A DNA stretch of 64,000 bases from Thuidium tamariscinum (taxonomy: Eukaryota > Streptophyta > Bryopsida > Hypnales > Thuidiaceae): positions 19,743,067 through 19,807,066 of the forward strand of contig OX344758.2 of assembly GCA_947034885.2 (NCBI GenBank), in the 5' to 3' direction. Position 1 is the first letter of the stretch. Each line of letters begins with the position of its first letter. The notes under the pieces were generated by a model. It was not told where the DNA came from. It did not search any database and saw only the letters and a list, made by a program, of their open reading frames with translations. The position numbers and the translations under genes were made by a program. Of the stretch, positions 677 to 58,421 are shown one piece after another.

Positions 677-1210
677 TTAACCCTAAGGCACTCAGACATC
701 CAATTTTTGGACAATGTATAGATTGAAAATGAGATTTTCTGGACAATTGTACAACTTGGATGAAAGTCATCCTAATTTTTAGAGATACTTTTAAAGGTTG
801 TGGTCCTATCCAAGGGTTGGATATGGTATTACTTGAATACAAATTTTTCAAAAATTACAAACATGGAAGTTTGTCAAGTGGTTGACTTACATTGATTCCA
901 GTTCAAACTTGGAATTGCAAAAATGAGGTCATAGAATCAAAGAATAGAAAAAGTCCAAAAAATCACACTATCAAGAGAACCTCATTTCAAATCCTTTAAA
1001 ACAAAATTTACACAAAAGAAAATGACAATATTTTGTGTGTAAAATATTGGTGATAGCATTGGTGAATCTAACCGTACGGATAGAATCTAAAACTCAAACT
1101 CTACAAGTTCTATTTGCATTTCAATTCCAAATTATTCTTCCAAATAGTACTTTAAGATGATTTTTTCAAAATCATCAATTCTAGAAATGAGTTTGGATGC
1201 TTAGGGTTAA
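677..1210. mobile_element. TTAA-flanked inverted-repeat element (weak ends)
   Basis: The left end reads TTAA-CCCTAAGGCAC and the right end reads GGATGCTTAGGG-TTAA, so both ends give TTAACCCTAAG inward, with a second shared block CATCCAA further in. The inside is AT-rich without an open frame. It resembles the family described at 25260 and 47017, but the terminal repeat is short, so this copy is only a candidate. Confidence 0.35.
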
Positions 1211-3346
1211 GAATACATTAGTAAAATTTGAATTGTAGATCGTTGAATTTGAATACTCGTTAGTACTAAAAACTAAAAACCCTGAAAGTGTGACAAATTA
1301 GAAAGATTGACTTTTGAATATAAAATTTGAAAAAAACATTAAAAATAAAAGATACAATTAAAACAAAAATATATGCAAACACAAAAATTTCAAGTTCATG
1401 GGAATCTAGATCTTCAAAAGTTATAGTAAAATGCTACAAAAAATGGACCTCCTTTCTTGCAATCACCTTGGCCTTGTTGAGATCCTTAGAAATAATTAGC
1501 TACTAGATAAATAAATAAATAAATATATTTGGTCTTGTGTTAGTGAGAAAGACTAATTTTTCAAATGTACATATGTAGAGAAAGGAATCCATGAATGGAG
1601 TATGAATAACTTTGGATTAATATGCAATTCTTTCTCTTTGGTGGTTTCATAAAGGTTGCTATGGAATATTGTGAATTCTTTGACAATTTTGTATACATAA
1701 TTATTTAGTTTGATGGAAAAACAAACCATAAAGTGTGCATGAGAAAACCTAAATAATGGTTGATGAAACTAAAATTAATTATCTTGAATTGATTCATGAA
1801 TTTTTCTTTGAACTAGGCTATTTTTTATAGATCATTGGTGTCATGAACAAGTTGTCAATGAAGAAAACTATAATAACAATATGATCATCTACTTTGGCAT
1901 ATTATATATTCCCGTTAGAAAATGATTATTAAAGACATTGTTTGTGAAGAAACTTTTATAATTTTTCAAACCAATCATTTGGAAATTGCTTAAGAACATG
2001 AAAAGCCTAATGCATCTCGAATACTTTGTATTTTGTGACATGGGTGAATTAAAAAAAAACATGGGGTTATTTCATATGAATTCAATAATAAGATTTATTC
2101 TTGAAAAAAAATTGTAAAGAAATCTAGGTGGTACATCTTCTAACCTAGGATGAGATAGCACTAATGAGATAGCACTAATGACTTTGATAATACTGTATAG
2201 TTTTGTAATAGGTACAAAAATTTCCATAATCAATACTTTCTCGTTGGTCAAATCTTGAACAACAAGTCTAGTTTTGTATTTGTTAGGTTTGTCAAGGAAT
2301 TCTAGTTTAATTATGTATTACCATCTGTATGATATGGTGTGTCTTTCTAGCAATATACCAAGTTTTATTCTAATCAATGTTGTGCACTTCTAGTTGCATA
2401 GCTTGTTGCTAGTCAAGATCATGTTTTATATCATCATATGTAATTGCATGAATTTTAAATTCAAAGTTGCCTAAAAATGAATAATAATGTAAGAGTTTAA
2501 TAAAGATTTGCACTCACGGCTAGATATGCAAGCTTCGAGTGGTATAGGAGAACGTTTGGTAGGGTGATAATTTGGGAGACCTAGATGTAGATGTTGAAGT
2601 TGGTTGGAGAGGTAAAATTTTAGGTGATTGAACATACTTTATAGAGAAATCTATAGAAGGTGTAGGCTAAAGGCTTGTAAGGCTAAAGGATTAACCTTAC
2701 AGGACTATTGCTATTAAGACTAACCACAAATAGTGATGGTTTTAGACAAAGTTTCAATGCGGAAGCCTATACTTGAGCTTGAGTACAAAAGATTAATGCA
2801 ACATTAAACATGAAAAATGAATGAGTTTTATGTTCTTCTAATTTAGTTGAATCAAGTGTCTAGGTCTCATCAAATGTAGTGTCATATGACATGATAATGA
2901 ATTTGGTGTTGGGATTGAAGCAACAAAATCTTGTGGATTGTTAATTCCTACAAGTATGCAAGAAGTGACTTTTGAACCCCATGACCCCCATCTTGTCTCT
3001 TTTATGCTTGGATACTCAACATAGATCTTTGTTCTAAAAATTTCAAAGTAGGATATATAGATCTTGTTGCTTATCCATATTGTATACCAGTCTAGACTTG
3101 TGTCAGTTATGGCTTTTATTGTTCGCTTGTTGAGGAGATAGATTGCATGTTAACAACCGCTTACTAGAAGGGTCTTACTAACATGTAGTGATGACCAAAA
3201 ATATCATGTAAGTTGAACAATGGAGTACTTCTATCATTTGGCTAGACCATTTGCTTTGTGGGATAAATGGTTGATTAAATTCATATCTTATCCTTTTCAT
3301 ATTACAAAACTATTAAAATGCATCAAAGATATATTCCTCCCTATTG
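1211..3346. other. AT-rich stretch, no gene seen
   Basis: I see no coding exon, RNA gene or bounded element here. A short AAAT microsatellite lies near 1506-1530. A doubled 'gagatagcactaat' lies at about 2152-2180. The sequence has the base composition of decayed repeat DNA. Confidence 0.5.
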
Positions 3347-3349
3347 TTA

Positions 3350-3927
3350 GGGCTACTTTACACTAAGAAGCTGGGCCAATTTGCTCTACCAAAGGCCAAG
3401 AATCCTTACTTGTGATTGGTTCAAAGGCTAAAATCAGCCCCAACCCCTTTACACCAAGAGGCTGGGCTAATTTCATAGTCTGAATTTTTTATTCTAAAAA
3501 GACATGATCTGAGATGGCCCAAGTATGACCCCAGCTTGCTGAATTGGGTGCACCAAAAATGGAAGGACAATTCTTGGCCTTGGGACTGATTTCAGATTTC
3601 AACTAAAAAAGCTTATCTCATAAAATATTATTATTTTCAACAAATTTGATTTGTTGGATTTTTGTGCAATTGGCCTCAAGGGAGGTTGGCTTGGCTTCTA
3701 GATGTAAAGCAGTCCTAAAATTTTAGCCCGTCTCTTGTTTTTTCTAAATTTTTCTTGAATCGGCTCAACTTCTTGGCCTCAAGGCCTTTACATACGGGAG
3801 AATTGGCCCCACCTGTAATGTTATTATAATGACTAGTTGAGGCCAACCCCAAAGCCAAAAAGGGGCTGAAATTTTGTGCAATTGTCTTGGAGAGAAATTG
3901 GCCTGGCCTCTAGGTGTAAAGCGGCGC
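3350..3927. mobile_element. PIF/Harbinger-like MITE with nested inner copy
   Basis: The left end GGGCTACTTTACAC and the inverted right end GCGCCGCTTTACACC continue into a shared AGAGGC..GGCCAATTT block, giving terminal inverted repeats of about 30 bp. Both sides carry TTA (3347-3349 and 3928-3930), the target duplication usual for PIF/Harbinger elements. A second inverted pair with the same CTTTACACC motif lies inside (about 3425-3460 and 3685-3725), so one element appears nested in another of its family. There is no transposase frame. The superfamily is inferred from TSD and end structure only. Confidence 0.6.
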
Positions 3928-3930
3928 TTA

Positions 3931-5795: not shown

Positions 5796-6216
5796 CAATC
5801 ATCTATCTATCTATGAAATAATCATAAACTACAAAATAGAATATTAAAAATAAAAATAATCAAAAAATTAAGGGAAAAAAGATATCTGTCGGGGCCATTG
5901 TCTTTCAAGGTTCTTTATATTTTTTCCTCTTTTTTTTTAACAAATGAAAATCTATCGCACAACAAAAGATACAAAACAATGAAATCCACACAACCAGACA
6001 AAAGGAGAATGAAAATAGGAAGATTAGGTGAATATGCAAGGAGCCTGCCCTTGCTGGTTCCAAATAACCAAATCCCAAAATTTCAATGGAAGTTGTCCAT
6101 GTGTTATAATAATAATAATAATCTATATTATTATTAATTTAAAAAATATATATTGGTACTAAACGGCTAGTTGATAGAGAAGTTAGGTAGGCTGAGAGGT
6201 TCTAAAAGCAAGCAAG

Positions 6217-6326
6217 CTCTAAAATGGAACACCTTCATAAATGTACATTGTTTGTACATGTTTCTTTTTGATAGCCTTCAATAATGTACAAATAGTGTAC
6301 ATTTAAAAGGGTGTTCCATTTTAGAG
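6217..6326. mobile_element. Hairpin MITE, left copy
   Basis: Perfect 17-bp terminal inverted repeats (CTCTAAAATGGAACACC at 6217-6233, inverted at 6310-6326) enclose a second imperfect inverted pair around 'aaatgtacattgtttgtac'. The whole 110 bp can fold on itself. A near-identical copy at 11032-11141 arose with the tandem duplication. No target duplication is evident, so the superfamily is unknown. Confidence 0.65.
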
Positions 6327-6382
6327 TCCTATGCCACTTCAACTTCAATTTTCATAATGAATTCTACAAAGCTCCAAAAATA

Positions 6383-6708
6383 CACTATAAGAAACTCGCG
6401 TTTTTTGTGTCGTCAAAATAAAAACACATCATGTTTTTAAAAAACGTGACAGCGCTCGCAGTTGTTAGTTTTAATTACACAGGATTTTATTAGATGTCAC
6501 TAGAAACATTGCATGTTTTTTGTGCAATGTGGATATGTCCACTGAGACAAGGATTTTTGTTTGGATGTCACATAGAATATGGTAAGATTTTTCAAACATT
6601 CAAAAAAACATAGATGGCCATGTCAGCAAAGACTTCATTCTAATTTTGAAAAAATTAATAAAAAAATTAATAGTCTGTAGTGAAAAATTTAGAGAAAGGG
6701 TAGCCACA
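6383..6708. mobile_element. CACTA element 5' part, left duplicate
   Basis: Starts CACTATAAGAAACTCGCG, preceded by ATA, exactly like the complete element at 11199. The sequence stays collinear to 'tagccaca', where the LTR-type insertion enters, and resumes at 10562-10606. It then stops at the tandem-duplication junction, so this copy never had its 3' end. Confidence 0.75.
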
Positions 6709-14914: not shown

Positions 14915-14918
14915 TTAA

Positions 14919-15298
14919 GGTAGAACCACCTATAACCAATCATTTAAGGTATTCTAGATATTCTGTAGTAGTGCAAAACAAAAAATATATTTTCATAGGC
15001 GCAAAGATAAAAATGATGGGGATTGCAAAAACTTTGGTAATTTTATAACATGAATTGAAATTATTATGAATTTTGGAAGGCGAAAAATGTGCTAGATTGA
15101 ATGCCAATTTGTGGGGTCTTTTATTTTCGATCACACAAAAAAATACCTTTTTACTCACTCCTTCCTACTTTCTTGCACACTACTTTGGGACATGTGCCAT
15201 GAACTTTTAGTCCCAACTTTAAAAACAAGAAAAAAAACACAATCACGTCCATCAACAAGTTGGCTATGGGATGCCAATTGATTATAGGTGGTTCTACC
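14919..15298. mobile_element. MITE with 22-bp inverted ends
   Basis: The left end GGTAGAACCACCTATAACCA and the inverted right end GGTAGAACCACCTATAATCA differ at one position over 20 and continue as CAAT. Both sides are bordered by TTAA (14915-14918 and 15299-15302). TTA/TAA (PIF/Harbinger-like) and TTAA target sites cannot be separated here. It lies just upstream of the PUB pseudogene exon. No transposase frame. Confidence 0.6.
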
Positions 15299-15455
15299 TT
15301 AAACCTTCCTTTGACCACCATTCTCAAACACAGGCCAAACTTTATGATGGACTCTATCGTACATAAAATACCTTTTTTTATGACAAGCAACATTGTTTAA
15401 ATTTTTTTTTAAAATGTATTCTATATTTATAAATGAAGCATTTTTAAAATTGCAG

Positions 15456-17937: not shown

Positions 17938-18235
17938 GAATTTATGATAGATTGTTGTGGCTCTGACTGATCGACGACCCCGCCACATAATTCTTATAAT
18001 TGCTAGCTAGGTTCTAGATCGAGGAGCTGTCCAGAGCCGGAGATGCATGCATGCATGCGTGCAGCAGCGGCCACAAACGAGGCAATATACCTCAAAAACT
18101 ATGGAGTGACTCGGTTGAAAATTGGAGGATGCAGTGAGGATTGATTGTTCTCAAAGCTTTGCTATGAGGCAGCGTTGGAATTGATCAGCATTTTGAAATT
18201 GGGCTGTTGATCAGTCTCTCTGATACTCCATCTCA

Positions 18236-21530: not shown

Positions 21531-21534
21531 TGGA

Positions 21535-25259: not shown

Positions 25260-25733
25260 TTCAACCTGTAAAGGACCAAACAATATTTTTTGGCAATATT
25301 GTAATTTTAGGCAACTCACTACAAATGGAGTTTTTATCTTTTTTCTTTGAAATTTTTATTTTTTTTCTTTGAAATTTTCATGCAACATATGCCTTAGGAG
25401 TAGCTTCAAGGGGCAACAATTTTTAAAACTTTTGATTACATAATCAAAAAGTTATTTCTTGATATGTGATTTTTTAAATCTTTTGACAAGCCATCTAGCT
25501 CATAAATCTTCTTTAAAAATCACTTTCTGAATAAATGAAAATTTATAAACTTTTTTTTAAAGATTTATATATGTAGGAAGCTTTGAATCATTCCATTTAG
25601 AGTAATGAGATAAAACTTATAAAGAGTCTTTTGTTTTATGGGTAGTTATTGAATCCCTACAGGTTTTACTACCCACAAACTATAGACCCTCATAAATTTT
25701 ATCTCATCAATCAAAATGAAATGATTTTATGAT

Positions 25734-25783
<50 letters not shown>

Positions 25784-26063
25784 TGTATATATATATAATG
25801 ATTTTTAATTTTTAATTTTTTCAAAAAGTGATTTTCAAGGAAGGTTTCTAAGTTACCTAGGTTATCCAAAGATGTTAAAAAATCACATATCATGCAAAAA
25901 CTTTTTCACCATGTAGTCAAAGTTTTAAAAATTGTTGCCCCTTGAAGCTACTACTTAAGCACATATTGTGTAAAAATTTCAAAGACAAAAATAAAAATCC
26001 CATTTGTAGAGGCTTGCCAAAAATTGCTATATTGCCAGCTTCAATTGGTCCTTTAGGTATTAA
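25260..26063. mobile_element. Long-inverted-repeat element, TTAA family 1, hairpin form
   Basis: The two ends read inward as TTCAACCTGTAAAGGACC and, inverted, TTAATACCTAAAGGACC. The match continues with TTTTGGCAATAT, GGCAA and CTACAAATGG and on through several hundred bases, so nearly the whole element is a giant imperfect hairpin centred near 25655. An AT microsatellite (25733-25798) expanded in the right arm. Half-copies of the same arm occur at 32340-32505, 34230-34270, 41708-42000, 47090-47640 and 50580-50775. No open frame of note. Confidence 0.65.
25733..25798. repeat. AT microsatellite
   Basis: Alternating AT/TA run interrupted by 'tacatata' and 'gtatata', inside the right arm of the hairpin element. 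Confidence 0.9.
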
Positions 26064-27080
26064 CTTTCATTTACATTTATGTAAAAATTAGTTTCAAGGA
26101 GTTATAGTGATTTGAATAGAAGGAAAGAGGTCTGTGGGCACCATATTCTCACATTGTATCTTATAGCCAAAGAAAATTTGTGACAAATATATTAACCTTT
26201 AAAGGATTAGCTTGCTAAATTTGGCAACATAGCAATTTTTGGCATGTACATGTGAATAGAGATTTGTCTATATTTTTGGTCCAAATTTTAATAGAATGTG
26301 GAGGCAAGGAATATCTTTCATAAGCAATAAAAATCAAGACATTTGGAAATATGGCTCAAAAGTTATAGCCTAATATGTTGGAAACAATTTGAAATTGGTT
26401 TTCTTCATTTATATTTGTATAGAAAGCTTTGAGTTGTTTCAATTTGATCGATGAGTCAAAAGTTATTAGGAATTTTTGTTTGCAGGCAATTATGGATTTT
26501 CTGTTCTAAAATAAACTTTGAAATCATTTATTTGACTCAATTTTCAATCATTTTCAAAAAAAATGAAATCATTGGATGTAAATTGTTTATTACAACATTG
26601 CCCAGGTGATAACTCGCGATTTTTAGAAAACTATATGACTTAAAAGATAGGGTCTATTTAGTTCAAAGGGGATAATATGTAGGACTATTATAGGGTCCTT
26701 GAAATGTCACATATCCTATTATATATAAATTAGGCTATGCATAAACATCATTTAGTAGGAATTTCTATTAATAAATTAGCCTTTACAAATAGGATTTGTA
26801 CAAAAAATTTGTAGTAGAATGAGTATAGATGTAGACAAAAAAATTTAAGTGAATGATAAAACTTTCACAATCTAGTAAATCTATGGATTTTTATCAAAAG
26901 ATTTGTTATTACTACCAAATTATTCTAGCTTGTACATACAAACCTTTCCATAAGTATGCCAACTACGTGAAAACATGTAAAAATCTATTGTTTCTAAGAC
27001 AAAAGAGTTGAGCTCTAAATTTACATTGAGGTTGTACTATGGGGATTTGTGTTCACCTAAAGTACTGTTTAAGAAATTGG
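26064..27080. other. AT-rich repeat-derived stretch
   Basis: Contains an isolated inverted end of the TTAA family (TTAACCTTTAAAGGATTAG at 26192-26210, then 'ggcaacatagcaattttt') without a matching second end. Otherwise nothing recognised. Confidence 0.4.
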
Positions 27081-30358: not shown

Positions 30359-31846
30359 TTGACTCCTAAATGCCCAAGGCCTTTTTTAATTAAGCTTCTA
30401 GGAATTTGTTCTATATTCTACAAACAATCAACATTTTGATAAGCTTTATTAATTTTTTGTTCAATGTAACTGTATAAATTCAAATTAGACATGTTAGAGA
30501 TCATTTAGAAAAAGAAAATATGATGATACCACTTATGGATCGAAAGATTATAATGTTCAACACAACTAGATGCAATGTTTGATTCCCTCAAAATGGCCTA
30601 GTATCCTTCCATTGTCTTTTATACTTGATTGGAAAGAAATTTGGTATATATCAAGTTCTCAAAAAGAGTTAGCCTTCATGTAGACCGTGTAGCACAATGT
30701 GGTTGCCGCTCACTCATGGCAAGCACATATCAACCCCACTATAGATACACGGTGTAATTGTTGCCCTTTAGCTGTATAGGAAACATCTATCCATAGGTTT
30801 TATGATTGTCAAGGTACCCAAAAAGTATAGGAGTACACGCAATGCATTCTTCATCATCTAAGTGGAGCTAATCCAATGTTAGGTTTGCATGCATGCTTTT
30901 CTGAAATCCAATGTATCTTTGGCTCCACTCTCCTTTGCAAATTCATGACAGTCAAAACCATTTGGTTCATCTTACGTAGTGCCTCACTATAGTTGATTTG
31001 GATTGCTAAAAACACTAAGGTGCTTAACCATATCCAATGGCCTCTAGACTTTATCTACCAAGCTCTTTAGAGAATAGTATTGGATGTTGGACATGGTGCC
31101 TTATTAAAGACCTACAAAACTCTCCCTCAATAAGCTACTTCTATTTGGGAGAATTTTGACAAACAATGGACCATGTCTTTAGTGTTGGCCACTCAACATA
31201 GTAAATAAGTTCATTGGAATAGCAAAGGCCCCAATCTTTGTAAGTTTAGGTAGTTTTTCTTTTGTTTATCTTTCTCTAGTTCTTTGTTCTTTGTCCAACC
31301 ACTTGGCTTGGCTAGTTTTGTATCTTGGCTCTTTTTAATGTAGTGGGGTCTCTCCATTTGTTCAAAAATAAATAAATTTTAATGTTTGATAAGAAGGTGT
31401 AGAAACTACAAAAGTGACTCAAAGTCTTTTGATCCACTTTTCACATGTCAAATCTCAACAGTTGGTAGCCAAAAAAATATGAGGTAAAAGGGCCTAGACT
31501 GCATAACCCCAATCAATTTATGGCTTTTCAAAAATCTGTTCTATAATTTTTTTAAATGAATTTCAAATGTGTTTTTTCTTCCAAGATTTAGTGCATTTGA
31601 TTCTCATTTCCAAGAGCCCTTAACACTAGAGAAAATCAATATTCCAATGGATCTCCTTGTATAAAATTTTGGATATGAAAATCATAGTCATTCACTTTCA
31701 AAATCAATTTTTTGATGCTTAAAGAGGACTTTACAAATAATTCTCCAAAAATACAAACTATTAAAAATAACAACTTGATTAGGTTTTATTTTACTTCAAA
31801 GTTTTGCAAGCACCATATTTTGGTGCCTTGGGCATCTAGGGGTTAA
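30359..31846. mobile_element. TTAA family 2 element, interrupted by an L1 fragment
   Basis: The left end TTGA-CTCCTAAATGCCCAAGGC and the inverted right end TTAA-CCCCTAGATGCCCAAGGC agree at 16 of 18 inside the tetranucleotide. The left 200 bp and a later block around 'aagtgactcaaagtcttttg' are collinear, inverted, with 56340-56699, which lacks the 30558-31379 segment. Removing that insertion leaves about 0.65 kb. No open frame. Confidence 0.55.
30558..31379 (+). mobile_element. L1-type LINE 3' fragment with 7-bp target duplication
   Basis: Flanked by TAATGTT at 30551-30557 and 31380-31386. The related sequence at 56450-56530 runs through this point without the insertion. Near 30972-31020 the plus strand reads LRSASL, stop, LIWIAKNTKVLNH, matching the tryptophan-rich carboxyl region of plant L1 ORF2. 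The 3' end has 'ttgttcaaaaataaataaattt', an A-rich tail as expected after target-primed reverse transcription. Strongly 5'-truncated and full of stops. Confidence 0.65.
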
Positions 31847-32505
31847 AGAATTTTTTTTAAATTTTGTACTTTGAATCATTTGCTGCTTCTTTTTGAGCAT
31901 GTAGCCAACTTGCATTGGATAATGAATTTAATGAGTAACTACCATTTAGAACTTTTTTTCATACAAATGTGACCTTGAAAAGTGCAACGGCCAAAGTTTT
32001 TGCAAGAATAATATTTTTGTCAATTCAAATGCTAGTATCTTGCAATCTACTTGGTGAAAAACTCTAAGAAATTTATACACGTTTTCAAACCAATTTATTA
32101 CAAGATCCTACAATTATAAAACTCAAAAAGTGTTTTCTAAAAACATTTGGTATTGATACTAGGAATGATAGTTTTTGACTGTTTTGGAGTAAACTAAGTA
32201 TTTATTTTTTAATTTAATTTTCTTATATAGGAATATATATCTTTTTATGTACATATAAATCTATAATATTAATTTCAAATTTCTTTTTTAAATTAAATTT
32301 TTGTTTTAACTACCCGATTTGCCCACTAAGAAATGAAAATTACATATCATGCTATAATTTTTTAACCATGTACCTTAAAGCTACTCCTTAGATGTATATT
32401 GTGTGAAAATTTCAAAGAAAAATAAATAAAAATTCCATTTGTAGTTAGTTCTTTATAATCACTATGTTGCCAAAAAATGCATCTTGGCTCTTCATGGATT
32501 AAGAG
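31847..32505. repeat. TTAA family 1 partial copies
   Basis: 31860-32190 resembles the inverted left half of the family-1 element at 49836, and 32270-32505 resembles its right half, ending 'gttgccaaaaaatgcat' then 'ggattaag'. The two halves face each other, suggesting rearrangement or a deletion derivative. Confidence 0.45.
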
Positions 32506-32974: not shown

Positions 32975-34300
32975 TTACCCCCAAAGGTTTTTCACTATGT
33001 TTTTGGGTGATTGCAAGAAACACCTCTCCTATTTGTTGCGTTTGGCTGATTTTTTCGGGAGTACTTTAAAATTAGAAAATTAATTTTTAAAAAATTTGAA
33101 AAATATAAATAGTGTATATACCTCTAAGATGAAGGTTTTGACTGAAGGAAATGGATAGGAAAATTACCTAAGTAGGAGAACTTGAAAAGTGCCAAACCTC
33201 CAGAAAATACATATCTTCATGTTTTAATTAGGGAAAAATATTAAAAATAGATATTTTCAAAAAATAAAAAATGGCCATTTGTGACAACTTTATAGAGATG
33301 GTCATTCACCAAAAAAACCACCAAAATAATATTTTATATGTTTCAAAATACAAGCAGAAGGGAGCTCACTTTGTAGACCTCCACACCTCACAAAATTAAA
33401 TTTTTTTAAAAATCCTTCCCTAGAAAGCTAGAAGTCTTTTAGAAGACCATCTCATCCAAATTTCATGTTAAAATCATTAAAAAAAGGTATAGCTCAGGTA
33501 TAGAAAACCCCTAAACTGCCAAGTGTGACATCCAATCGGGGGCTATTTATAGATAGTAAACTATTTTTGAAAATTATGAAAAAATTATTGAAGGTTTATG
33601 ATAGTTATGAGGACCTTCCCTCCAAATCTTGAGTCAATCGGAGCTAAAACACAGAAGTTATGGCCAAAAAACAAATTAGAATGCGACGTGTGACACAAAA
33701 TAGGACAGGTGTTTCTTGCAATCACCCTTTTACAAAAAAATGTTTCATAACCTGCGATTTCTAATACAAGTACAAAATTTTAAGAAAAACTTTTTTTTTG
33801 ACATATGTAACTATGGGATCTTGTAGTAAGGTCATTTGAAAAGATGTGGAAAAAAATTTCAGAAATTTTCACTAAGTAGATTGCAAGATATTAACATTTG
33901 AATTGAAAAAAAATCCTATTTTTTATTCTTGCAGAAGCGTGGGTAGTTGCACTTCACAAGGTTACATTTGCATGAAAAAATGTTCAAAATGGTGGTTTCT
34001 TTTTGAATTTGCTCTTCAATACAAGTTCGTTACATGCTCAAAAAAATTCAAATAATTTGGAACTATATAACATATAGGAATAAAATAGTAAGTAGAAAGA
34101 AGTAGAAAATGATTCAAAGCTTTCTACGCAGACATAAATCTAATAAACTAACTTCAAAATTTTATTTCTTGAAATAATAATTAAAAAAAAAATTTAGCTA
34201 TCCAGGCTACCCACCAAGTAAAGTCTACGATATATCATGCCATAATTTTTTAACCATGTAGTCAAAAGGTATGAAAATTAGTGCCCTTATTCATTTTGAA
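32975..34300. mobile_element. TTAA family 1 copy carrying a nested insertion
   Basis: Starts TTACCCCCAAAGGTTTTTCACTATG, close to the left end at 49836 (TTAACCCTTGAAGGTTTTTAACTATG). It is interrupted at 33005-33727 by the GGGTGATTGC element, and continues with words shared with 49880-50600. The right end is not resolved. Confidence 0.5.
33005..33727 (-). mobile_element. GGGTGATTGC-terminus element, copy A
   Basis: Perfect 21-bp inverted ends beginning GGGTGATTGCAAGAAACACC at both sides. It lies in opposite orientation to copies B (37519) and C (48931); for example 'ggccataactt' near its right end, inverted, matches B. The flanks are T runs (ATGTTTTT and TTTTAC), so the target duplication is TTT or TTTT. 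Non-coding. Confidence 0.65.
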
Positions 34301-34402
34301 GTAAGAGTTCGTAGAAAATGTATTTCCTACTTTATTTTGAATGAAGAAAATTCCAGAAATCACTCAATTTTTTTTACAGGTTCAGACTTGACTAAAACAT
34401 GT

Positions 34403-34687: not shown

Positions 34688-36090
34688 TCCAAATTTAAAT
34701 TTTTATTAAATTTTTAAAATTGACAATTTTGAAATCTTTAGACGCTGCCAGCCTGTGCCACGAAGCCTTTCTGTTTTTTTCTTTGAAAAGTGAACGTTTT
34801 AAGTCCCAAGAATCAGCTGCTTTTACTTTTTCTTAATATTTTTATAAAAAAAATTTAACCCGGAGATCTGCTTATAGTTTTCTTTCTTTGTTGAAACTAA
34901 TGAACCATAGCTGCTGGAATTTGGGGTGGTCTAGCAGACCACTTAAAATAGTAGCTTTCCATGGTTTTATTTACAGTTTTTTCGACACCACAATTTGATG
35001 CCTTGCCGGGGCATTTAGGGGTTGAGCTACAGAACTCCTTTTTGGAATTCTTTGATTGAAATCATTGTCCGCTATCAGTCGATGGGAATTGTCCATGTGT
35101 TTCAAAATGGGAAAAAAAAAAAAGGAAGAAAAGAAGTCAATTGTACAACATACAATTCAAATCATTCCACTCTTTTATTTTGAATCATTCCACTCTTTTC
35201 ACCAATTAGTGATCAGGTTATTAAAAAAGGAACTTCGATTTCAAATCAGCCTACAGTGGGACTTCTTGTAATGTAATGTACTCCCTCTGTCCCACTAAAA
35301 GCTTCCTAATTAGGCTGATTTACAGTCTTTGCAGGAAGAATTTGGGAAGCTTTTAGAGGGAGTGGCCATTGTTTTTGTTTTTGTTTTGTTTTTAAGTCTT
35401 CTTTGAATTTGCACCCTTCTGAAAGTACCTATGGAAGCAAGTGTGGCTATTGTTGAATTGAGGTGAGGCTGTTGAAACATGACAAACTAAGTTAATGTTT
35501 GTTTTTTCTCTTCCTTTCAACCATGTTTGAATAACTGACTGACTGTTTCAGTTTCAGTTTGTATAACTTTTATGCTCAGTTGAAATAATAGGTAATGATT
35601 GATTGCACAGCATGACTAGTTTGTGTTTTTCGTCTTTTTTAACGGGACTTTAAAAACATACTAATAAAGTATTAGTACTTGAACACCTGCTAATGAGGAA
35701 TTGGTTCTATTTGAGACACACTTGTCTATTGTCAGCAATTGCTGATTGAATCGTGCGTAGATATTATTTATTGAAAAGTCCTCACTTTTGGGAAAGACCG
35801 GAAGACCTGATCGACCCATACACGTCATTTCAAACTTTTTTGAATTGGGGGGCCTGCTGCCCGGCAGCCCGACTGCCCGCTCTGGTCTATGAGAGAGGGG
35901 GAACCGAGACATAAAAAAAATTCTTTAAATTAAACTTTTTTATTTTATTGAAACCCCATGCAATGGAAATTGTCCTCTGTTCCAAAAAAATAGAATAAAA
36001 TAATTATTGAAACCGAGACAAGATTTATTATCAAATTATTGGCAGGCTGGGAGGGTACTGATTTCAAAGAATGTGTAGGGCAGGCGGGCA

Positions 36091-39584: not shown

Positions 39585-39587
39585 AAT

Positions 39588-41707
39588 GCCAAAAAATGAA
39601 TTAAAAAAACAAACAAACTTTTGCTTAATAATGAATATTTCACTCAATAAAAATGTAGATTTTTCATTTGAATCCATTTTTGATTCATAAACTAGCCTAC
39701 TACAATTAGCTTTAGCACTTCTTTCTAAGCAACGAAAGAAGAGAGATGAGTGGATGAGAAGATACATACAAAGAATCTTTTTCAATAAACAATGCACCAA
39801 ATGTTGTCCACAACAAGTTAGCCTATAATGCCATTAGAAGGGGTTGTCTAAAATAGGTATTTGTACCATATATAGTAACATTATATTGACAATCAAAATT
39901 AATTACAATATTTTCCAGAATTAAGTTGACCTTGTCTTTGTATAGTTTGTTTTTGTTTTAATTTTTTTAAATAAACTCCAATTTTCAAATTTAAAAAATT
40001 GAATACAAAATTTGAAGTGCTAGCTTTCATGAAAAACTACAAAATTTTCAAAAATTGCTTTAGAAATGTGAAGGTTGAGTAAAACAATATACACAATCTT
40101 TACACATGTCCAAAGTTGCAATATACATCAACTCCATAATAAAACATTCTTGTACAAAACCAAATTGACATTAAATATGTATTGTATTCACTACAGTATT
40201 GTATTTACCTCAAAACGACCAACCTGCATTTTTTTAACTACATAGCAATTTTGGGCAACTCACCACAATGGAATTTTTATATTTTCTTTGAAAATTTTAA
40301 AATCCCAAAAAACAACACAATTAAAGTATCTTTGTATACTCCTAACAAAGCCAATTTCAAGGAAATGTGTGCAAAAATGCATTAGCTATGCTTGTCCAAA
40401 TTTTAATTGTTTGGCCCTTCACATGAAAAATATTGCTAAAAATATATAATGAATGTAAAAGATGACTAGTTATAAACGTGAAAGAACTAGTTGGAAGGTT
40501 TAGGATTGATTTCTCGAGCATTTAGTGAAATATATGCCCAATTGTGGTAAACCATATTTAGCACCAATGCCAGAGCCCGTTTGCAACACATCATTCTTTG
40601 AAGATTAATTGCAAGGATGTGAAGTGTTGGATCACTCTCATTTTCTTTTTGTTCAAGGATTTGCCTTATAGAACCAATTCATACAATTTGATTTAGAATA
40701 ACATCCATATAGTGGTCACAAAATGAGACTTTTCAAGAATTGTATACAAAAATTGCGCCCGCCTCCAAATCAACTGTGGTCCTTAAGGAATTAATCCCTA
40801 AAGGACCAAAAGGACATAATGTATCTTCTTCAAATTTTCAATGGCAAATTCTCAATAGGGTGAAACAAATTTGTTTATTTTGTAAATTAGGATCTTGTAG
40901 AGTAACAAGTTTACATATTTGTTGCATTGTCTGATTTTCAGAATTTGAATGCAAGAAGTGTTTTAAATTTTATTTAGGAAATATAGTCTAATAAAAGAAA
41001 GGGAGCAAATATAATATTTTTCAATGAAAGAAGTAGTAGAGATGGAAAATATATATTTTTGGAGGATATTTTTAGTCTTTATTATTTAAAAACACACAAA
41101 ATTTGAAGAATTTTTTTCAAATTTTTATTTCTAGCAATTTTTAAAATAAAAAGTCCAATCTAGTGTGATTAAGAATCAAAATAATTAGAATGATTCCAAA
41201 TTTTTTTTTGAAGATGTCCCAAACAATACAATTATTAAGAAAATAATAATTTCAAAATTGTACACATATCTAATTTAAAAAAAATTTAAGATCCAACTTA
41301 GTCAATTTTGGCTTTCTACTCCTTCTATTTGAAAATGTGCACAAATTTGAGGGAGTTTTTTATTTTTGAAATTTCTAAATAAAAAAGATGCAACATTTGC
41401 TTTAGATTCCAAGAAATATTTTTAGGAGGGATTAAAAAAAAGCATTTTTCATCTTCTTATGAATTTTTTTCTCTAAAATCTGCATTTTTTGCCTATGAAG
41501 TCGATCATCCATAATTGTTATAATTTAAGAATCCAACAACCAAAATTTTTCACAATTAATTCCATGTATACTAGACAAAATAAACTTTACTTTTGTTTGG
41601 TTGAAATGATAAAATTTAAGCACATCTATGTGCAAAAAAAATATCAAAGTGGAATAATTCATAGAAAAACTTCATCGTCAAAAAGTTGTTGGGCCTTTAG
41701 GGGCTAA
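39588..41707. other. AT-rich repeat-derived stretch
   Basis: No gene. 40235-40280 resembles the arm of the 25260 hairpin ('catagcaattttgggcaactcac'). A TTAATCCCTAAAGGACC end at 40791 points right, and GGGCCTTTAGGGGCTAA ends at 41707, but the inside does not resemble either TTAA family, so the pairing is doubtful. Confidence 0.4.
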
Positions 41708-42010
41708 AGTCCAACAATTTGCATAACTTTTGACTACAAGGTTAAAAATTTATTCTATCATATGTAATTTTCAGTGTTTAGCAAGCACCTTGGATAATAC
41801 AAAAAGATTCTTTAAAAAATTACTTTTTTGAGAAATAGAAATTTAAAATTAATTTTCTAGATTTATGTAATGTTTAAAGCTTTGAATCATTCCATTTCGA
41901 TTAATGAAACAAAAGTTATCGAGAATTTTAGTTTGTGGGTAGTTATCAATTGTCCACTCTAAAATAAACTTTGAAGTCTTATATATATATAAGGTGTAGA
42001 TTGTTTATTA
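41708..42010 (-). repeat. TTAA family 1 partial copy, inverted
   Basis: Read in reverse it matches the right half of the 49836-50775 element, including 'aaagctttgaatcattccatt' (inverted in that copy) and 'cataacttttgactac'. Truncated at both sides. Confidence 0.45.
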
Positions 42011-45800: not shown

Positions 45801-46079
45801 GTCATTCAACATAGTCAATTAAAAAAAGTTCATCCAAATCCATTCATCTTCATTTATAGCCAAATCTTATTACTTTGAACCATGGATATAGGTATCTTAA
45901 GTTGAAAAGTTTCCAAATTTTCACATATTCTTTTATAAATGTTTTGTGCTCACTGCTCATCACTTGTTGCTCAACGCTCAACACTCATCTCTCCCTACTC
46001 ATACTTTAGCAACTCTGCATTGGAATTGGCATTTTTCAATTCAATAAAAAAATTGTTAAAAATTTAGTATTTTGGATCG
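42861..46079. other. AT-rich stretch, no gene seen
   Basis: Includes a 'tgcctattttgag' block near 43044 related to 36091 and 55600, and a run of 14 G at 45509-45522. No exon, RNA gene or bounded element otherwise. Confidence 0.45.
45509..45527 (+). repeat. G homopolymer
   Basis: Fourteen G followed by AGGTGG. One of three long G/C runs in the window. Confidence 0.9.
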
Positions 46080-46850
46080 TTCCCTACTTTATTGTAGTTA
46101 CTTTTTTTTTCTATATCTTGTACAAGTTTAAATGATCTAAAATTTTCAAGCATGTAGACAACTTGCCCTGAGGAATAAATCCAAAAAATTACAACCATTT
46201 TGAACATTTTATCATACAAATGTGAACTTGTGAAGTGTAACTGCCTATTTTTTTACAAGGCCAAGAAAAGAACTTTGTCAAACATTAAAGAAAATCTAGA
46301 TTCTCTAGATGGCTGCTAAGAACTGACAAAAGAGCCCTAGATTACATTTATTTGGCATAGGCAAGAATTTTTCCCCCATAGGTGTGGTGCACTAAGTGTC
46401 GTGAATACAGCAATGCAGCCCAATGTCAGAGAATTGATACATGAGCACTTGTGTTCAATCGGATGAAATTTGTAGAAAACTAACCTATATTCTTGTTGAC
46501 GATGAAGATATTCACACAAGTTGAAACGCAATTTGGTCAATATTCTTGTACTTTTTCTAGCTTAGTAGGGCTCTCCATATAGAAAGGTTTGTCAAACCTT
46601 AGTGGCCTTCTGAAAAGTCTAAATTTTCTCTAATGATCAAATGTGAATATGTTCCAATCTTCATGGTAGAAATTTTGGAATTTTTTCCATATCTTTTTAA
46701 ATCAGCTTACTATAAGATCCTAAGGTTATTTGTATCAAAAAATGTTTAAGAGAAAAATTTATACTAGTAATAAAAAAATGGTAGTTTTAGAGCATTTTTG
46801 GTGAAAACAAAGTCAAAAAACTTTAGGTGATAAGTAAATGTATAAGTTTT
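46080..46850 (-). repeat. TTAA family 1 left-half copy, inverted
   Basis: Reverse complement of words found at 49860-50230 (for example 'ttgaaaattttgaagtcattt' and 'atagattgcaagacat' with changes). The terminal region near 46835 is degenerate. No gene. Confidence 0.4.
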
Positions 46851-47016: not shown

Positions 47017-47644
47017 TTAACCCCTAAAGGACCAAGCTATTTTTTTTGGCAACATAGCAATTCATATGTGAAATTCATAGTAAAGAAAACAACATATCAT
47101 GCCATAACTTTTTAACCACAAAGTCAAAAGTTATGAAATTTTTTGGGCCTAAAAGCTACTCCTTAGGCTCATATTGTGTAAAGATTTCAACGAAAAAAAT
47201 AAAAACTCCATTTGTAGTCAAGGTTGTCTTGTCGGACATATTTTTGGGTTTGGGTGTCGTGTAGGACGTCCAACGTCGTGTGTGACAATGACAACTTGTT
47301 ACGAAGGGTGTCACACCTCGTCACGAAAGTCCATTTTCAGCAGCTCAAAAAAATGAAAATCTTACTATTACTATGAACCTAAATGAAGAATGTAATATGT
47401 ATTCATAAAATTGAAACACTTAATTGAAACCCAACTTAAATATGTCAAAATTTTTAATTTCTAATGATTTATTTTGAAGTCAACTTGATTTTTAGTCTTT
47501 GAGACGTCACGAGGGCCCTACTAGACGTTGCGTGACGTCTGTCTGTCGCGATGTCGCAATGTCCGGTAGAACAACCCTATTTGTAGTGAGCTGCCCGAAA
47601 TCGCTATGTTACCAAAAAACGCAGCTCAGGGCTTTAGGGGTTAA
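47017..47644. mobile_element. TTAA family 1 short element with 43-bp inverted ends
   Basis: Left end TTAA-CCCCTAAAGGACCAAG and inverted right end TTAA-CCCCTAAAGCCCTGAG. The similarity extends over about 43 bases, including TTTTTTGG(C/T)AACATAGC. Without the nested Mutator-like insertion (47219-47578 plus 9 bp) it is only about 250 bp. TTAA is present outside both ends, but it cannot be told from sequence alone whether TTAA is the target duplication (as in piggyBac) or part of the ends. Confidence 0.6.
47219..47578. mobile_element. Mutator-like MITE with 9-bp target duplication
   Basis: Flanked by ATTTGTAGT at 47210-47218 and 47579-47587. Unoccupied versions of this site occur in sister repeats at about 25998, 32440 and 50712 ('ccatttgtag' running directly into 'gagttgcc'-like sequence). 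Ends CAAGGTTGTCTTGTCGGACA and, inverted, AGGGTTGTTCTACCGGACAT are imperfect inverted repeats, with further GACGT-rich inverted sequence inside. The 9-bp duplication points to Mutator-like elements. Non-coding. Confidence 0.7.
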
Positions 47645-49835: not shown

Positions 49836-50775
49836 TTAACCCTTGAAGGTTTTTAACTATGTTCTTACCGAAAAAGTTCCAAAACTGCCATTTTTATTAC
49901 AAGTACAAAATTTTAAGAAAAAAAACATTTTTATGATACAAGTAGTCAAAAAATCTTTTAGTAAATTGGTTTAAGAAGATGTGGAAGAAGTCTCAAAATC
50001 CTAAACCCAATAGATTGCAAGACATGAACATTTGAATTGAAAAAATTTATTTTCTTGGCCTTGTGAAAAATTAGATAGTTGTACTTTACAAGCTTACATT
50101 TGTATAATAAAATGTCTAAAATGGTTGTAATTTCTTGGATTCAATCTTCAAAGTAAGTTGGCTATATGCTTGAAAATTTTGAAGTCATTTGGAGTTGTAC
50201 AACATGTATGAAAAAATTAGTAAGTACAAAGAAGTGGAGAATGATTCAAAATACTAAATTGTTAAAAATTTATTAATGGAATTGAAAAATTCCAATCCAA
50301 CAATTTAAATGCTTTAATAATCAATCTACACCCAATGTTATTACTATTTTTCAAAAATACTAAAAATTGAATTAAATAAAGGATTTTAAAGTTTATTTTA
50401 GAGTAGAAAATCCATAACTATCCACAAACTAAAACTCCTTATAACTTTTGTTTTATTAATCAAAATGGAATGATTTAAAGCTTTCCACATTTGCATAAAT
50501 CTAAAAAACTAATTTCAAATAATTATTTTCTTAAGAAGAGATTGAAAAAAAAAATTGGACCACCTAGTTTGCCCACCTAACATTGAAAATTGCATATCAT
50601 ACAATAAATTTTTAACCATGTAGTCAAAAGTTGTGCAAATTATTGGACCTTAAAGCTAGTCTCTGGAAAAATGTTTTGTAAATTTTTTTAAAAAAAAGAT
50701 AAAAATTCCATTTGTAGTAAGTTGCCTAAAATTATTAGGTTGCCAAAAAAAACACTTTAGTCCTTTAATGGTTAA
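49836..50775. mobile_element. TTAA family 1 element, full-length form
   Basis: Left end TTAA-CCCTTGAAGG then 'tttttaactatg', right end inverted TTAA-CCATTAAAGGACTAAAG then 'ttttttggcaac'. About 0.94 kb. Each half matches separate copies elsewhere (58150-58421 and 33740-34000 for the left, 47090-47640 and 32270-32505 for the right). No open frame; the left and right halves are only loosely inverted. Confidence 0.5.
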
Positions 50776-53560: not shown

Positions 53561-53563
53561 AAT

Positions 53564-56339
53564 GAATTTCCACTATTCATACTACTAAAATCATATCTCC
53601 CTCTGTAATATCACAAATGCTACCATTAATACTGGGGGCTCGTATTTGCTATGCTATACATTCATTATATCACATATTGATAAAATTTTGATATATTTGA
53701 ATAGAATGCACAAAAATGATTTCAATAAGTCTTTAAAATGATTATTTTAAATATTTTGTAAAAGTATTTTCAATCATGCATATATAGAAATTGTATTTTC
53801 ACACAATGTGATATTATAGGAATAGAGTAGTAGTTCACAATTACCTTTCTATATCACTTTCTACAAAGGGTGATATTAGAGGAATAGTGTAGTCATTGCA
53901 ATTAAGGTAATACTAAAGAGGATCCATAGGGTGATATTATAGAAGTATCAATTCCATTGCTTCTCTTGGCTTTATACTTCTTTGAACTTCTATGATTTTG
54001 TGTTTTAATTTGTGAGCTTTGAGCTTTCATGATTTCAATTTTCTATTGTTGCTACCAAATGATTTGAGAAATGTATTCATTGAACAAAAGTAATTTTTTA
54101 TTTCACAACAATTATATTGTTCACAAAGTTTTTGAGATTTATAGATTCTTCTTTTCAATTCTTCCATTTGGGTTGCCATTGTTTGTAACAATAGATGTTG
54201 TAACAGTTGATGTTGGTGGTGGCATTTCTCAAGATATCACTGAAGAAGTTGAGACACAAGCCAAAGTTGAAATCATAGCAAATTTTTCAACATCATTGCC
54301 TTTTGTTGATCCATATTCTTTACAAGTATCAAGATCACAATCTATGCATGAGCCTCCACTTTGTATACAACTTCCAAGTCTTAAAGACATTGACTCGGCA
54401 ATTGTACCATCTACAAGAAAAAACACTCTATATTCTAAAAAAGAAACTTAGTTGTTTTCATATTTATTGCATCATCAAAATGTAAAGAAACATATCAAAC
54501 CAAAAAATTGTACTATAGTTGATTGAAAAAAGTTTGCAATACATAGAAATATCGTTGTCTCGTAGAAAGTTGCCTTGGAAATTCTAATTTCCTTGTCCAA
54601 GATGAATTTCAATTTCAACAAAAAATAAAGATGAAGACAAAAGAGGAAAATAAAAATGTAGTAGATATTGTATGCACTTATGTTAGAATTCATGTGTATT
54701 TCATTTAATATATAGTTTATCATGCATGTAAAAGTATGATGATTTATAGAATTTAGTTGTAGTGTTCATACTTTTTACAAAGCATTGTTTTTCAGTTATG
54801 TGTGTTCTTATTTTAACACATGTTTTATTTTGCATAAATCACTATAACAACTTTTATTGCAATCATTTTGTACTTCCTTCACTTCACTATATAATTTCAT
54901 TTATTTTCACTTCATTTTAGACAATTTCATTTACTATATAGAATTTTTTTAATCAATTTATCATTATTGATTTTTCCTTCAATAATGCCAAATTATTTAA
55001 TTGATTTTTAATTTGAAAATTTCCTAATAAAAAATAAAAATAAGAGCATTTACCACTAAGTTGAAGTATATACAATGCGTGGAACATTGTTTAGAATATT
55101 TAATTTTTGTATCTTTAAATCACATTGAAGATTTATTTAATTATTTTGAGAATATTATTATAATTTATGAAGTGAATTCAAAACTTTTCTTCTTTTTAAA
55201 TACAAAGATTTTCTTAGTTGTCATTTAAAAAAATTTAATACTGATGTAGATTTCTAATTTGACTTATGAACAACTTTTATGGCCTTGTATACTTGTCCAA
55301 GTGTTTTTTGTGACTAATCTATGTATTTTTTTAAATTTTTTTAATAATTAAAATATAACTTAATTTGACTCATATAAAAAAAATTCAATTGGAAATTTAT
55401 AATTTTCACACTTTAAAGTCAAATATGCTAAATAACTTTTGTGCATTTCTAATAAAATATCATATCTAAATTCATGTATTAAATATGATGAACCACTTTT
55501 CAACATTTAAAGATTTAGGACAATTATAAATATATTGAAACCAATCCTAGAAGGTCTATTCAAAATCATTTAAACAATCATTGTAGGGATAGGCAGGTAT
55601 TGCCTCTTCTAAGCCTATTGTGTGAAAATGTCAACTATAAAGTATTATTTTATTATTTTCCACAAATAACACATGTGGAAAAATTTCATTGACTGTTGAT
55701 ATTTTTATAGAGGCCGTAAACCCCTTGTTTTTTTGCCACAACTTTTGTCTCGTGGCTTAGAACCTCATAATGCTTGCCATTGTAGCTTCCTTGTGTTTAT
55801 ATCTTTCCAATTATATACTACATGCAATATTCCTTGAGGTAGTCATTGGAAACCCCTTATCCCTATCCCTCAACTATCCCACCTCCATTAGAACATAGTC
55901 AATTTTGAATAGCCATAAGTTCTAGCCTACAAGTCCAAATTGTGCATTCTTTAGACTATTGAAAGAGTCCCCTTAAGAACTTGTCAAGCATGTCTATTAT
56001 ATTAAGTACAAATGGTCTCTACCCTTGTCACGTTCTAATGTCACAAAAATGGTCACGTTTTCATCCAAAATATTTTTCATCCAATCCATTTTCTCCTAAG
56101 TTCAATTAATGTTACACTACAATAGGTTTGTGCTAGTATGACATATATTCAAATTATTTAAATTTAGGGTGCTATTGCACCCTATTTGCTCTAGAGTCTC
56201 TCATTTCTCCCTTCTTAAACTATTGCAAGGCTTCAGAAGTCACCCTCAAGGTCCCCCTTGTTCACTAAGGTACTTCAGACACCTCAAGGAGATATGAGCA
56301 TGACAATATTGGAGAGAAACACATTAGAAATTTATTTTT
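53564..56339. other. AT-rich stretch, no gene supported
   Basis: One open frame of 126 codons (54071-54451) has no recognisable domain. Small repeats 'gtgatatta' occur at 53810-53945. A block near 55590 resembles 43025 and 36091. No RNA gene seen. Confidence 0.4.
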
Positions 56340-56699
56340 AAAAGTTGTAGAGTAGATTTTGAAAAGCAATAAATTGATTGGGGTTGTGCATGTTAGACCC
56401 TTTTACCTCTTATTCTTTTGGTGACCAACTTTTAAGATTTAACATGTGAAAAGAAAATTGAAAGACTTTGAGTCCCTTTTGCAATTTTAACAATTTCATG
56501 ATCGATCAAACATTATAATCTTTCAACCCATGAGTGAAATTGTCAGGTTTTTTTCCCTAAATAATGTCTAACATGTCTAGTATGAATTTGTCTGGTTACA
56601 TTTGAAAAAAATTGATAAAGCTTATCCAAATGTTGGCTTTTTGTTCAATTTAGAGCAAATCCTTTAAAGCTCAAAAAGGCCTTCGGCATAAGGGGTTAA
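56340..56699 (-). repeat. TTAA family 2 partial copy, inverted
   Basis: From the right end it reads TTAA-CCCCTTATGCCGAAGGCC on the minus strand and is collinear with 30359-30557 joined to 31387-31560, without the L1 insertion. The other end is missing or too diverged. Confidence 0.55.
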
Positions 56700-57026
56700 C
56701 TTCAAAGCCCATACTACTTGTTTCGCTAGTTTCTAATGTAAAGTTTAGACTTCCTAGATTTTAGCAAGGAGTAAATGAAATGTACAAGATGGATGAAGTT
56801 GTGAATTAGTCTTAGGCATGTGTCAAGCTCCCCCTTCCTTCAACCAAAGCCCCAAAGTGGAGGCCCAAAGGCAGCAACAGTCACGTCTATATTAGTGCAA
56901 TGAGCCATTTGTGGACTCTATTTTGCCACCCTTTTTTATCCCCGAGAAAAATGTAGGAACTTTTTATTTGCAATGCAATATAAAATTTTGAGTTCATATT
57001 TGCAATCAGAGGCCCCCCCAATTACC

Positions 57027-57836
57027 TTAACCCCTAAATGCCCAAGCCTTTTCAAGTGTGTTTTGACTATGAATAAAGTGCATGGACTTGTAGTCATCCC
57101 TAGTGAAGCAAATTGATTTTTTTCCAAAATCTAACCGGATAGATGTTTAAAGAGCTTATTTATTAGGAAGTACACAAATTTTGAGTACAAAACTGCATTG
57201 GAGTTGTGAGATTATAATGAGAGAAGAGTGCATTTTCTATATTTAGTATGCTGCCTTTTTCCCACAATGTTTCCCAAATTTGCATATAAATTTTTTGGGG
57301 GATTGGAGGTGACATGAACAACTACAAAAAGTGTTAGCACACTAAAATGCACTTCAAAAAAACTTAATTCCACATGAAAAGCTATTAAATTCATTACACA
57401 ATCCACCTTGCAATTGTTGAAATGCAATGATTTTTATAAGTAGAAATTGCAAATATCTCCAAATCAATAGTTGTGAGTTTAAATTTTCAATGGTGAATAT
57501 CATGAAAATACTTTCCTCTTTCCATTGGGACTATTTTCAAAGCAAATGGATACGTACAATTTTTTAGATCTCAAACTAAATGAAACTGCATAAAGCTAGG
57601 AAACAAAGTAAAATTGGCAAGCTTAACACTTCACTTTTAGTACATGTATGCCTTTGAAGACCTCTCAATAATCAAATATGTACTTTTTTCACTGAAAAAT
57701 GAAAGTTTGCAATAGTTAACCCTTAAAACTGACCCCAATTTTTTTTAAATGGTCACAGGAATTTAACTGCCCATTCAGAAATGGGCCTCAAATTTCAGGT
57801 TGACCATATATGGTCGATTGGGCAGTTAGGGGTTAA
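57027..57836. mobile_element. TTAA-flanked element(s), family 2-like ends, one nested
   Basis: An outer left end TTAA-CCCCTAAATGCCCAAGCC at 57027 pairs with the inverted right end TTAA-CCCCTAACTGCCCAATC at 57836. A shorter candidate at 57716-57836 uses TTAA-CCCTTAAAACTGACC as its left end. Either pairing may be right. No coding sequence. Confidence 0.4.
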
Positions 57837-58149
57837 AGAGGTGTGTACTGTACAGTAGAATTACCATGGGTGGGTATGTCCGCCGGCATAGCATGATTGA
57901 AAAGAGATTGGAGAAGGGAGAGTGAGGGGTCGTGTACAATTTGTGGACACAAACTGGGGATGGTAACACAGACAAAATATACATTCAGTATTACAGTAGA
58001 CAGCAACACAGTACCCTATGCGAAGGGCAGATTTGACATACAGGGGAGGGCGCTAAAATAGTGCGCGAGGGCCCAAAAACAGTGCGGGCATTTTCAACTG
58101 TGCAGTAAGCGGCTGCGAAACATTAGATGAGATTTGAGGCCTCTGGACA

Positions 58150-58421
58150 ATTTTTCATATGATTGTTGCCATCTAAAGTGTAGCTGCCCTGTTTTCCACA
58201 AGGCGAAAATAATGATTTTCGAGCATTCAAACGCTAATATCTTGCAATCTACATGGTGAAAAACTCTGAATTTTATTGCACATGTTCTCAAACTAATTTA
58301 TTACAAGATCCTACGGTTACAAATCTCAAAAAATGTTTACAAAAAATTTGGTATTGATATGAGAAATGGCAGTTTTTGACCATTTTTGGAGTAAACATAG
58401 TTAAAGAACTTAAGGGGTTAA
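58150..58421 (-). repeat. TTAA family 1 left-end copy
   Basis: On the minus strand it starts TTAA-CCCCTTAAGTTC then 'tttaactatgtttactcc', matching 49836 onward for about 270 bases. It ends without a right half, abutting a GC-richer patch at 57900-58130. Confidence 0.5.

Follow-up and report, generated by a model that had tools for sequence, protein, structure and literature searches.

Do the recurrent TTAA-ended elements in a 64,000-nucleotide stretch of the Thuidium tamariscinum genome belong to piggyBac, a transposon known mainly from animals and a leading tool of gene delivery? The stretch (contig OX344758.2, positions 19,743,067-19,807,066, forward strand; "the window" below always means all of it) had been read from its letters alone as carrying a set of long-inverted-repeat elements with inward-facing TTAA-CCC ends, and this sequence-only reading had linked them to piggyBac. 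The link was supported by two results: a single TTAA was found at unoccupied counterparts of occupied sites, and elements with such ends were found to carry a piggyBac transposase. We are highly confident that the window elements are decayed non-autonomous piggyBac elements.

Direct reading found end-like sequence at all places previously listed, pairs and single ends alike. With up to one mismatch, TTAACCYYTAAAGG occurred eight times in the window against 0.24 expected, and TTAACCCCTAAA ten times against 0.85. The inward core CCCCTAAA[GT]G gave 12 matches when at most one mismatch was allowed and TTAA was not required. Six of these followed directly on TTAA (background 0.0085, P = 3e-10) and ten on TTAA or a one-mismatch form of it (background 0.10, P = 6e-9), the remaining two on GTTA and CCAG. 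In the window's own genome (363,211,507 bases in 19 contigs) exact copies of TTAACCYYTAAAGGACC numbered 5,366 (2,755 and 2,611 by strand) and those of TTAACCCCTAAATGCCC 1,498 (769 and 729), the reversed control giving none in either case; the window holds one exact TTAACCYYTAAAGGACC, against 0.95 expected from the genome mean. A chance origin of the ends was rejected on the window motif excess, the core test and the genome-wide counts against reversed controls.

The earlier observation thus held in part, the ends being real and far above chance and several details needing correction. The end placed at 25260 reads TCAA at 25261, and that at 30359 reads TTGA-CTCC, neither with an intact TTAA. 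The description "long inverted repeat" fits 25261-26063 only, whose arms reach hundreds of bp (about 68-86% identity); the arms of other pairs are shorter (about 50 bp in 47017/47644, 28 bp in 30359/31846 and 19 bp in 57027/57836). Ends beyond the earlier list were the pair 40791/41707, the right ends 46833 and 35025, and the left end 32975. Among the 19 window ends, with 25261 and 46833 in corrected register, TTAA is exact in 14 and carries one mismatch in five (TCAA, TTGA, TTAG, TTAT, TCAA), a share that is not an unbiased test because the pattern used to pick many of the ends contains TTAA. In the same register the outermost T is kept in 19/19. CCC starts 12 of the 19, the departures being 25261, 26063, 26192, 30359, 40791, 46833 and 50775, and inverted repeats starting CCC or CC[C/T]T, as in piggyBac, were found. 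A weight matrix for the ends, two rows of which were out of register (25257 and 46827), served candidate finding only.

At least two sequence families had been said to share this end. Self-comparison of the window, with terminal letters where the self-comparison gave nothing, sorted the ends into type A (25261, 26063, 26192, 40205, 47017, 47644 and 50775), type B (32975, 46833, 49836 and 58421), type C (30359, 31846 and 56699 by homology; 57027, 57836 and 35025 by letters), type X (40791/41707) and the separate pair 677/1210, which has its own sub-terminal sequence. By sub-terminal type 49836 and 58421 are B, and 50775, 47017 and 26063 are A. The 50775 end reads CCATTAAAGG, C-type ends are CCCCTAAATGCCCAAGG-type, and the 677/1210 ends carry CCCTAAG; the right flank of this pair showed a weak 59% match to 49176-48930. 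The TTAA at 40791-40794 is common to the X-type left end and another inward end, back to back. The window elements are decayed, 0.5-1.5 kb in size and often nested, and the seven best-paired ones make up 6,120 bp, or 9.6% of the window.

The sequence-only reading had proposed a search for transposase genes flanked by such ends, and this search showed that elements with TTAA-CCC ends encode a DDE_Tnp_1_7 (piggyBac) transposase. The genome search with PF13843 (piggyBac transposase) scored 116 matches of 659 candidates, every listed one over the cut-off, with E values from 5.7e-80 to 1.4e-70; it gave matches in 0 of 14 control genomes. Many of the scored matches have frames of 500-1,200 amino acids (aa), many have inner stops, and ten listed matches have an equal score and a 1,023-aa frame. 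Fifteen transposase loci and two extensions were fetched (fetched loci carry L numbers). Both ends, all TTAA-CCC, were found for six of the 15 loci. These six represent four apparently complete elements, 5.1-6.8 kb in size, and a pair of these elements each occur as two copies whose homology ends exactly at TTAA. L067 and L068 have 5,096 bp in common at 99.98% identity; their homology stops at TTAA on both sides and their flanks differ. In L068 one TTAA serves both the 5.1-kb element and an end of an A/B element of 930 bp. The L070 element (5,615 bp) matched in 16/16 terminal bases and that of L071 (5,094 bp) in 12/16, the limits of both being set by these ends. The open frames of the L067/L068, L070 and L071 elements span 1,023, 1,127 and 1,214 aa, respectively (stop-to-stop).

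The fourth element, of 6,812 bp (L072 with L082; C7:5102411-5109222), has a copy on C3 (L076 and L083) with 98.96% and 98.76% identity in the compared parts, which stops at TTAA at both ends. Its 565-aa frame matched PF13843 at 2.3e-78 and, in phmmer, piggyBat (9c0f) at 3.5e-28 and piggyBac (6x67) at 2.5e-22. In this one protein the D of TIDE, TDNYFSS and GVDVADQ align with D in 6x67 and 9c0f. We take the catalytic aspartates of piggyBac to be D268, D346 and D447, and the predicted protein appears to carry their counterparts. DDE_Tnp_1_7 was found in all four elements; a sub-terminal link was found for the A and B types of the window only.

This link is provided by the 6,812-bp element. All seven A ends scored above 200 of 200 shuffles against its right end, both ends of 25261-26063 included. 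None of six other ends (30359, 57027, 57836, 41707, 677 and 49836) beat all shuffles in this comparison, the score of 30359 being reached by six shuffles and that of 49836 by seven. Against the left end of the element, the B ends 58421 and 32975 scored 37 and 29, the best of 100 shuffles reaching 27 and 25, respectively. The A/B likeness to the element extends beyond the terminal repeat. Since a transposase element has one B-like and one A-like end, the layout (B left, A right) also found in 49836-50775, the A/B elements are taken to be piggyBac-derived.

Similar elements occur elsewhere in the genome. Twenty end pairs on C1 were fetched, all among the first 100 places listed there; they were picked by TTAA at both ends, so that 20/20 TTAA is given by construction, as are most of the 21/21 in a further count. 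In that count the wider core CCCCTAAANG showed TTAA in 32 of 36 cases, 20 of the loci having been seeded on it; L047-L066, fetched for complete elements near single ends, were used in this count only. Eighteen of the 20 pairs measured 915-934 bp including the TTAAs (the others 1,171 and 1,663 bp). Of these size-matched pairs 17 match one another, with best identities of 85.6-99.4%, and L038 is without a match. The longest stop-to-stop frames in five checked pairs of this 0.93-kb family were 73-95 aa. One member, L028, showed 62% similarity to the left end of the 6,812-bp element over 210 columns, stopping at its TTAA; in L027 no similarity was seen at that end. In viral_contigs the A-type interior had no match, and the end was matched once in each of 18 stretches, taken as chance; genome_contigs gave no match.

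Target-site duplication was examined at unoccupied counterparts, which were paralogous repeats and not orthologous sites. They contain one TTAA against two at the occupied sites. This is clearest in L037, where the occupied site reads GCAGC-TTAA-element-TTAA-GATATG and the other arm of the palindrome GCAGC-TTAA-GATATG. L030 sits in a B-type end, and its unoccupied counterpart reads ACATAG-TTAA-AGAACTTAAGG in a gapped alignment. The empty-site check thus agreed with the sequence-only reading at L037 and L030. When the joined flanks of 30359-31846 were compared ungapped with two unoccupied B copies, a 4-bp duplication reached 48/60 and 45/60, and duplications of 0-3 and 5-10 bp at most 39/60. 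The right junction at 41707 has six unoccupied relatives, of which two read TTAA (near 50652 and 32370), two TCAA, one TTTA and one ATAA. Near 57436 the window matches the right end of L079; this junction, read on its right side only, has ATAA. Left-side counterparts of the 58421 and 41707 junctions were searched and not found, both junctions being read on one side only. As in piggyBac, then, the TTAA target was duplicated on insertion, L033 being ambiguous. A longer, Mutator-like duplication was rejected, none being present outside TTAA in the ends read.

Several observations weigh against the piggyBac reading. At the target sites, ungapped comparison of L030 was weak (copy one, 4 bp 25/46; copy two, 6 bp 23 and 4 bp 22), and L033 when ungapped fits 3 bp best (55/64 against 39/64 for 4 bp), one gap turning this into a single TTAA. 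With gaps the 30359-31846 comparison was undiscriminating (4 bp, 86 and 82; 1 bp, 86 and 84), and TTAA is one base off in one of its unoccupied relatives and lost in the other. L033 speaks for a PIF/Harbinger (Tourist-like) origin, in which a TTA/TAA duplication, of a 3-bp class common in plants, has been misread as TTAA by one extra base; the sequence-only reading had kept this as an alternative. However, the four letters recur on both sides, and elements with such ends carry PF13843, no search for Harbinger families having been made. The 3-bp duplication was rejected: TTAA or 4 bp suits L037, L030 and 30359-31846, and only L033 fits 3 bp, ungapped. We regard a PIF/Harbinger origin as very improbable.

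TTAA is palindromic, so that duplication of TA alone, flanked by a fixed T and A, would yield identical letters, and it contains TA, so that empty sites alone cannot separate TA from TTAA. Both points would suit a Tc1/mariner-like origin, with T and A belonging to a preferred target and termini of the form ACCCC..GGGGT. Against it stand the invariant outermost T and the piggyBac-type transposase, which settles the matter for A/B, and we give it hardly any weight. Kolobok and Sola3 also use TTAA, and either would account for the TTAA duplication. Partly accessible sources report Kolobok from chlorophytes and Sola1 from Physcomitrella. Kolobok termini, according to the accessible part of PMC9587614, read 5'-RR..YY-3', against CC..GG in most window ends, and the linked transposase is piggyBac-type; we consider an origin from Kolobok or Sola3 extremely unlikely, no search for Sola families having been made. 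A 388-bp element at 14915-15302 has TTAA with GG..CC ends, identical inverted ends TTAAGGTAGAACCACCTATA (20 letters) and a copy near 60355-60571 with CTAA; this element could be Kolobok-like.

As to the link with the transposase, only two of the four B ends beat all 100 shuffles, 49836 and 46833 tying with the best one. Among the C, X and 677/1210 ends, only 35025 matches an end of a sampled transposase element beyond shuffles, by one point (31 against 30, with L067). Nine of the 15 loci (L069, L073, L074, L075 and L077-L081) were without a convincing end pair in the stretch fetched. No transposase fragment was found among 10 and 89 window frames (overlapping sets; the second comprised frames of at least 70 aa and omitted 25 frames at 18000-21900, a region from which five frames were in the first set). 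With no transposase-bearing partner among the sampled loci, C, X and 677/1210 might come from another superfamily with coincident TTAA-CCC termini, A/B alone being piggyBac-derived. Their TTAA flanks and CCC termini and the 4-bp duplication at 30359-31846 argue otherwise, as does the TGCC after the first bases, which resembles CCCCTAAACGCC of the 5.1-kb element and also, in the accessible part of PMC2872659, the ends of coral piggyBac miniature inverted-repeat transposable elements (MITEs). We consider such a separate origin unlikely and provisionally place C, X and 677/1210 with piggyBac on their TTAA and termini only.

The observations comprise TTAA on either side of the elements, a single TTAA at unoccupied counterparts, open transposase frames within such ends, and the sub-terminal likeness of the 6,812-bp element to the A and B ends. 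In the mechanism that we propose, complete elements elsewhere in the genome would make piggyBac transposase, which would bind the TTAA-CCC ends of the window elements and excise them; the excised elements would be pasted into TTAA, leaving TTAA on both sides. The transposases described here probably moved the window copies in this way (trans-mobilization), and the A/B elements may have arisen via internal deletion. The 99.98% identity of the two 5.1-kb copies, with the ten equal-score PF13843 matches having a 1,023-aa frame, suggests recent activity. We hold it an evenly balanced matter whether this is a land plant with several piggyBac lines active now or very recently, in which non-autonomous derivatives number tens of thousands (extrapolated from the window, as is any copy number past the exact counts), form a large share of intergenic DNA and often lie in each other's TTAA. 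The features of the window are collected in Table 1.

Table 1. Elements, single ends and unoccupied sites in the window
Feature	Position	Strand	Remarks
TTAA-CCCTAAG paired ends, 534 bp	677..1210	.	own sub-terminal sequence; no transposase link among sampled loci
A-A element, 803 bp, long inverted arms	25261..26063	.	left TTAA decayed to TCAA
A-type left end and homologous interior	26192..26599	+	right end not found
Single TTAA, unoccupied counterpart of genome copy L033	29649..29652	.	1-base gap beside
C-type element, 1488 bp, TTGA-CTCCTAAATGCCC / TTAA-CCCCTAGATGCCC	30359..31846	.	sits in B-type element
Remainder of B-type host of C-type element 30359-31846	31847..32372	-	
B-type left end TTAC-CCCC and collinear interior	32975..34355	+	interrupted by unrelated repeat 33005-33727
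C-like right end TCAA-CCCCTAAATGCCC	35022..35025	-	
A-type element, left part, end decayed	40205..40302	+	
X-type element, 917 bp, TTAA-TCCCTAAAGGACC / TTAG-CCCCTAAAGGCCC	40791..41707	.	
A-type interior after X-type right end	41708..41984	-	
B-type element, decayed end TTAT	46020..46833	-	interrupted by unrelated insert ~46277-46619
A-A element, 628 bp	47017..47644	.	47017 is the sole exact window copy of the 17-base end
A/B element, 940 bp, B left and A right	49836..50775	.	same layout as 6.8-kb piggyBac; also unoccupied reference
TTAA, unoccupied site matching right junction of 40791-41707	50650..50653	.	left side not found
C-type right end TTAA-CCCCTTATGCCG and interior, partly deleted	56305..56699	-	
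C-type by terminal letters, 810 bp, CCCCTAAATGCCC / CCCCTAACTGCCC	57027..57836	.	
B-type right end and interior	58144..58421	-	B end nearest to transposase-bearing element
Single TTAA, unoccupied counterpart of genome copy L030	58401..58404	.	gapped alignment
TTAA, unoccupied copy of repeat flanking end 58421	62221..62224	.	right side only

Other repeats lie in and between these elements. The insert at 46277-46619 has ends CATTARAGAAAATYTAGA, and its short duplication is doubtful. A repeat family with ends GGGTGATTGCAAGAAACAC is present at 33005-33727, about 37519-38212 and from 48929 onwards; its first copy lies inside a B-type piggyBac element, and its duplication, tentatively 5-6 bp by best fit, is T-rich. 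Repeat R (9-333, 58418-58893 and 62221-62920) has no clear ends of its own, and the start of one copy coincides with the TTAA at the 58421 end. Another copy is interrupted by a 218-bp foldback element at 62400-62617, which starts GGGAGAGGCACCC and has a 4-bp duplication, TTAC; comparison with unoccupied copies (58520-58680 and 1-120) fits 4 bp best (47/60 and 46/60), and the element is not piggyBac-like. A direct repeat of about 870 bp (5881-6710 and 10697-11564) has 93.6% identity. A GC-rich gene lies on the minus strand of 18220-20700. It encodes a glycosyltransferase domain of family 2 (PF13632, 6.4e-17), and a PDB search returned only bacterial-type cellulose synthases; we take the gene to be CslA-like and, on this ground, the host to be probably a plant.

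Such a genome, with ends of this kind in the thousands and with open transposase frames, would supply native piggyBac elements for tests in plants, and would offer many insertions datable via empty sites. The word piggyBac is absent from the accessible main text of a land-plant element review (PMC9033089) and of a survey of MITEs in 207 plant genomes (PMC12550479). Lists in the accessible parts of PMC10794571 and PMC10004981 name it, the latter paper counting PiggyBac among seven angiosperm MITE superfamilies, so that piggyBac-type MITEs in plants are not a new claim. The accessible parts of PMC6890710 and PMC8319324 give short piggyBac annotation hits, 1,230 for a fern and one for a grass, respectively. 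A literature search covering titles and the beginnings of abstracts, with most subscription papers outside its reach, found no report of complete piggyBac elements in a plant.

The window elements are small, abundant and non-coding like the Tourist and Stowaway MITEs of plants. Both of these differ in their termini and in their duplication, which is the 2-bp TA in Stowaway and the 3-bp TAA/TTA in Tourist (PMC10004981, accessible part). With Kolobok the elements share a TTAA-specific 4-bp duplication; unlike Kolobok, with its RR..YY termini (PMC9587614, accessible part), they have CC..GG ends and are linked to a piggyBac enzyme. The coral piggyBac MITEs (CMITEs), as described in the accessible part of PMC2872659, also duplicate TTAA and may adjoin one another, and their ends, CCCCTCAGTGTCC and on the right side CGGCAGTTAAGGGG, are similar to those found here; they measure about 100 bp, whereas the present elements span about 0.5-1.7 kb and show more diversity. 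The transposase-bearing elements, at 5.1-6.8 kb, are larger than piggyBac itself (about 2.5 kb in the accessible part of PMC10813416) and differ from it also in that three have stop-to-stop frames of 1,023-1,214 aa, and in their host, which is probably a plant. Taken together, TTAA flanks, CCC termini, DDE_Tnp_1_7 and the aligned catalytic-motif aspartates are features shared with the piggyBac superfamily.

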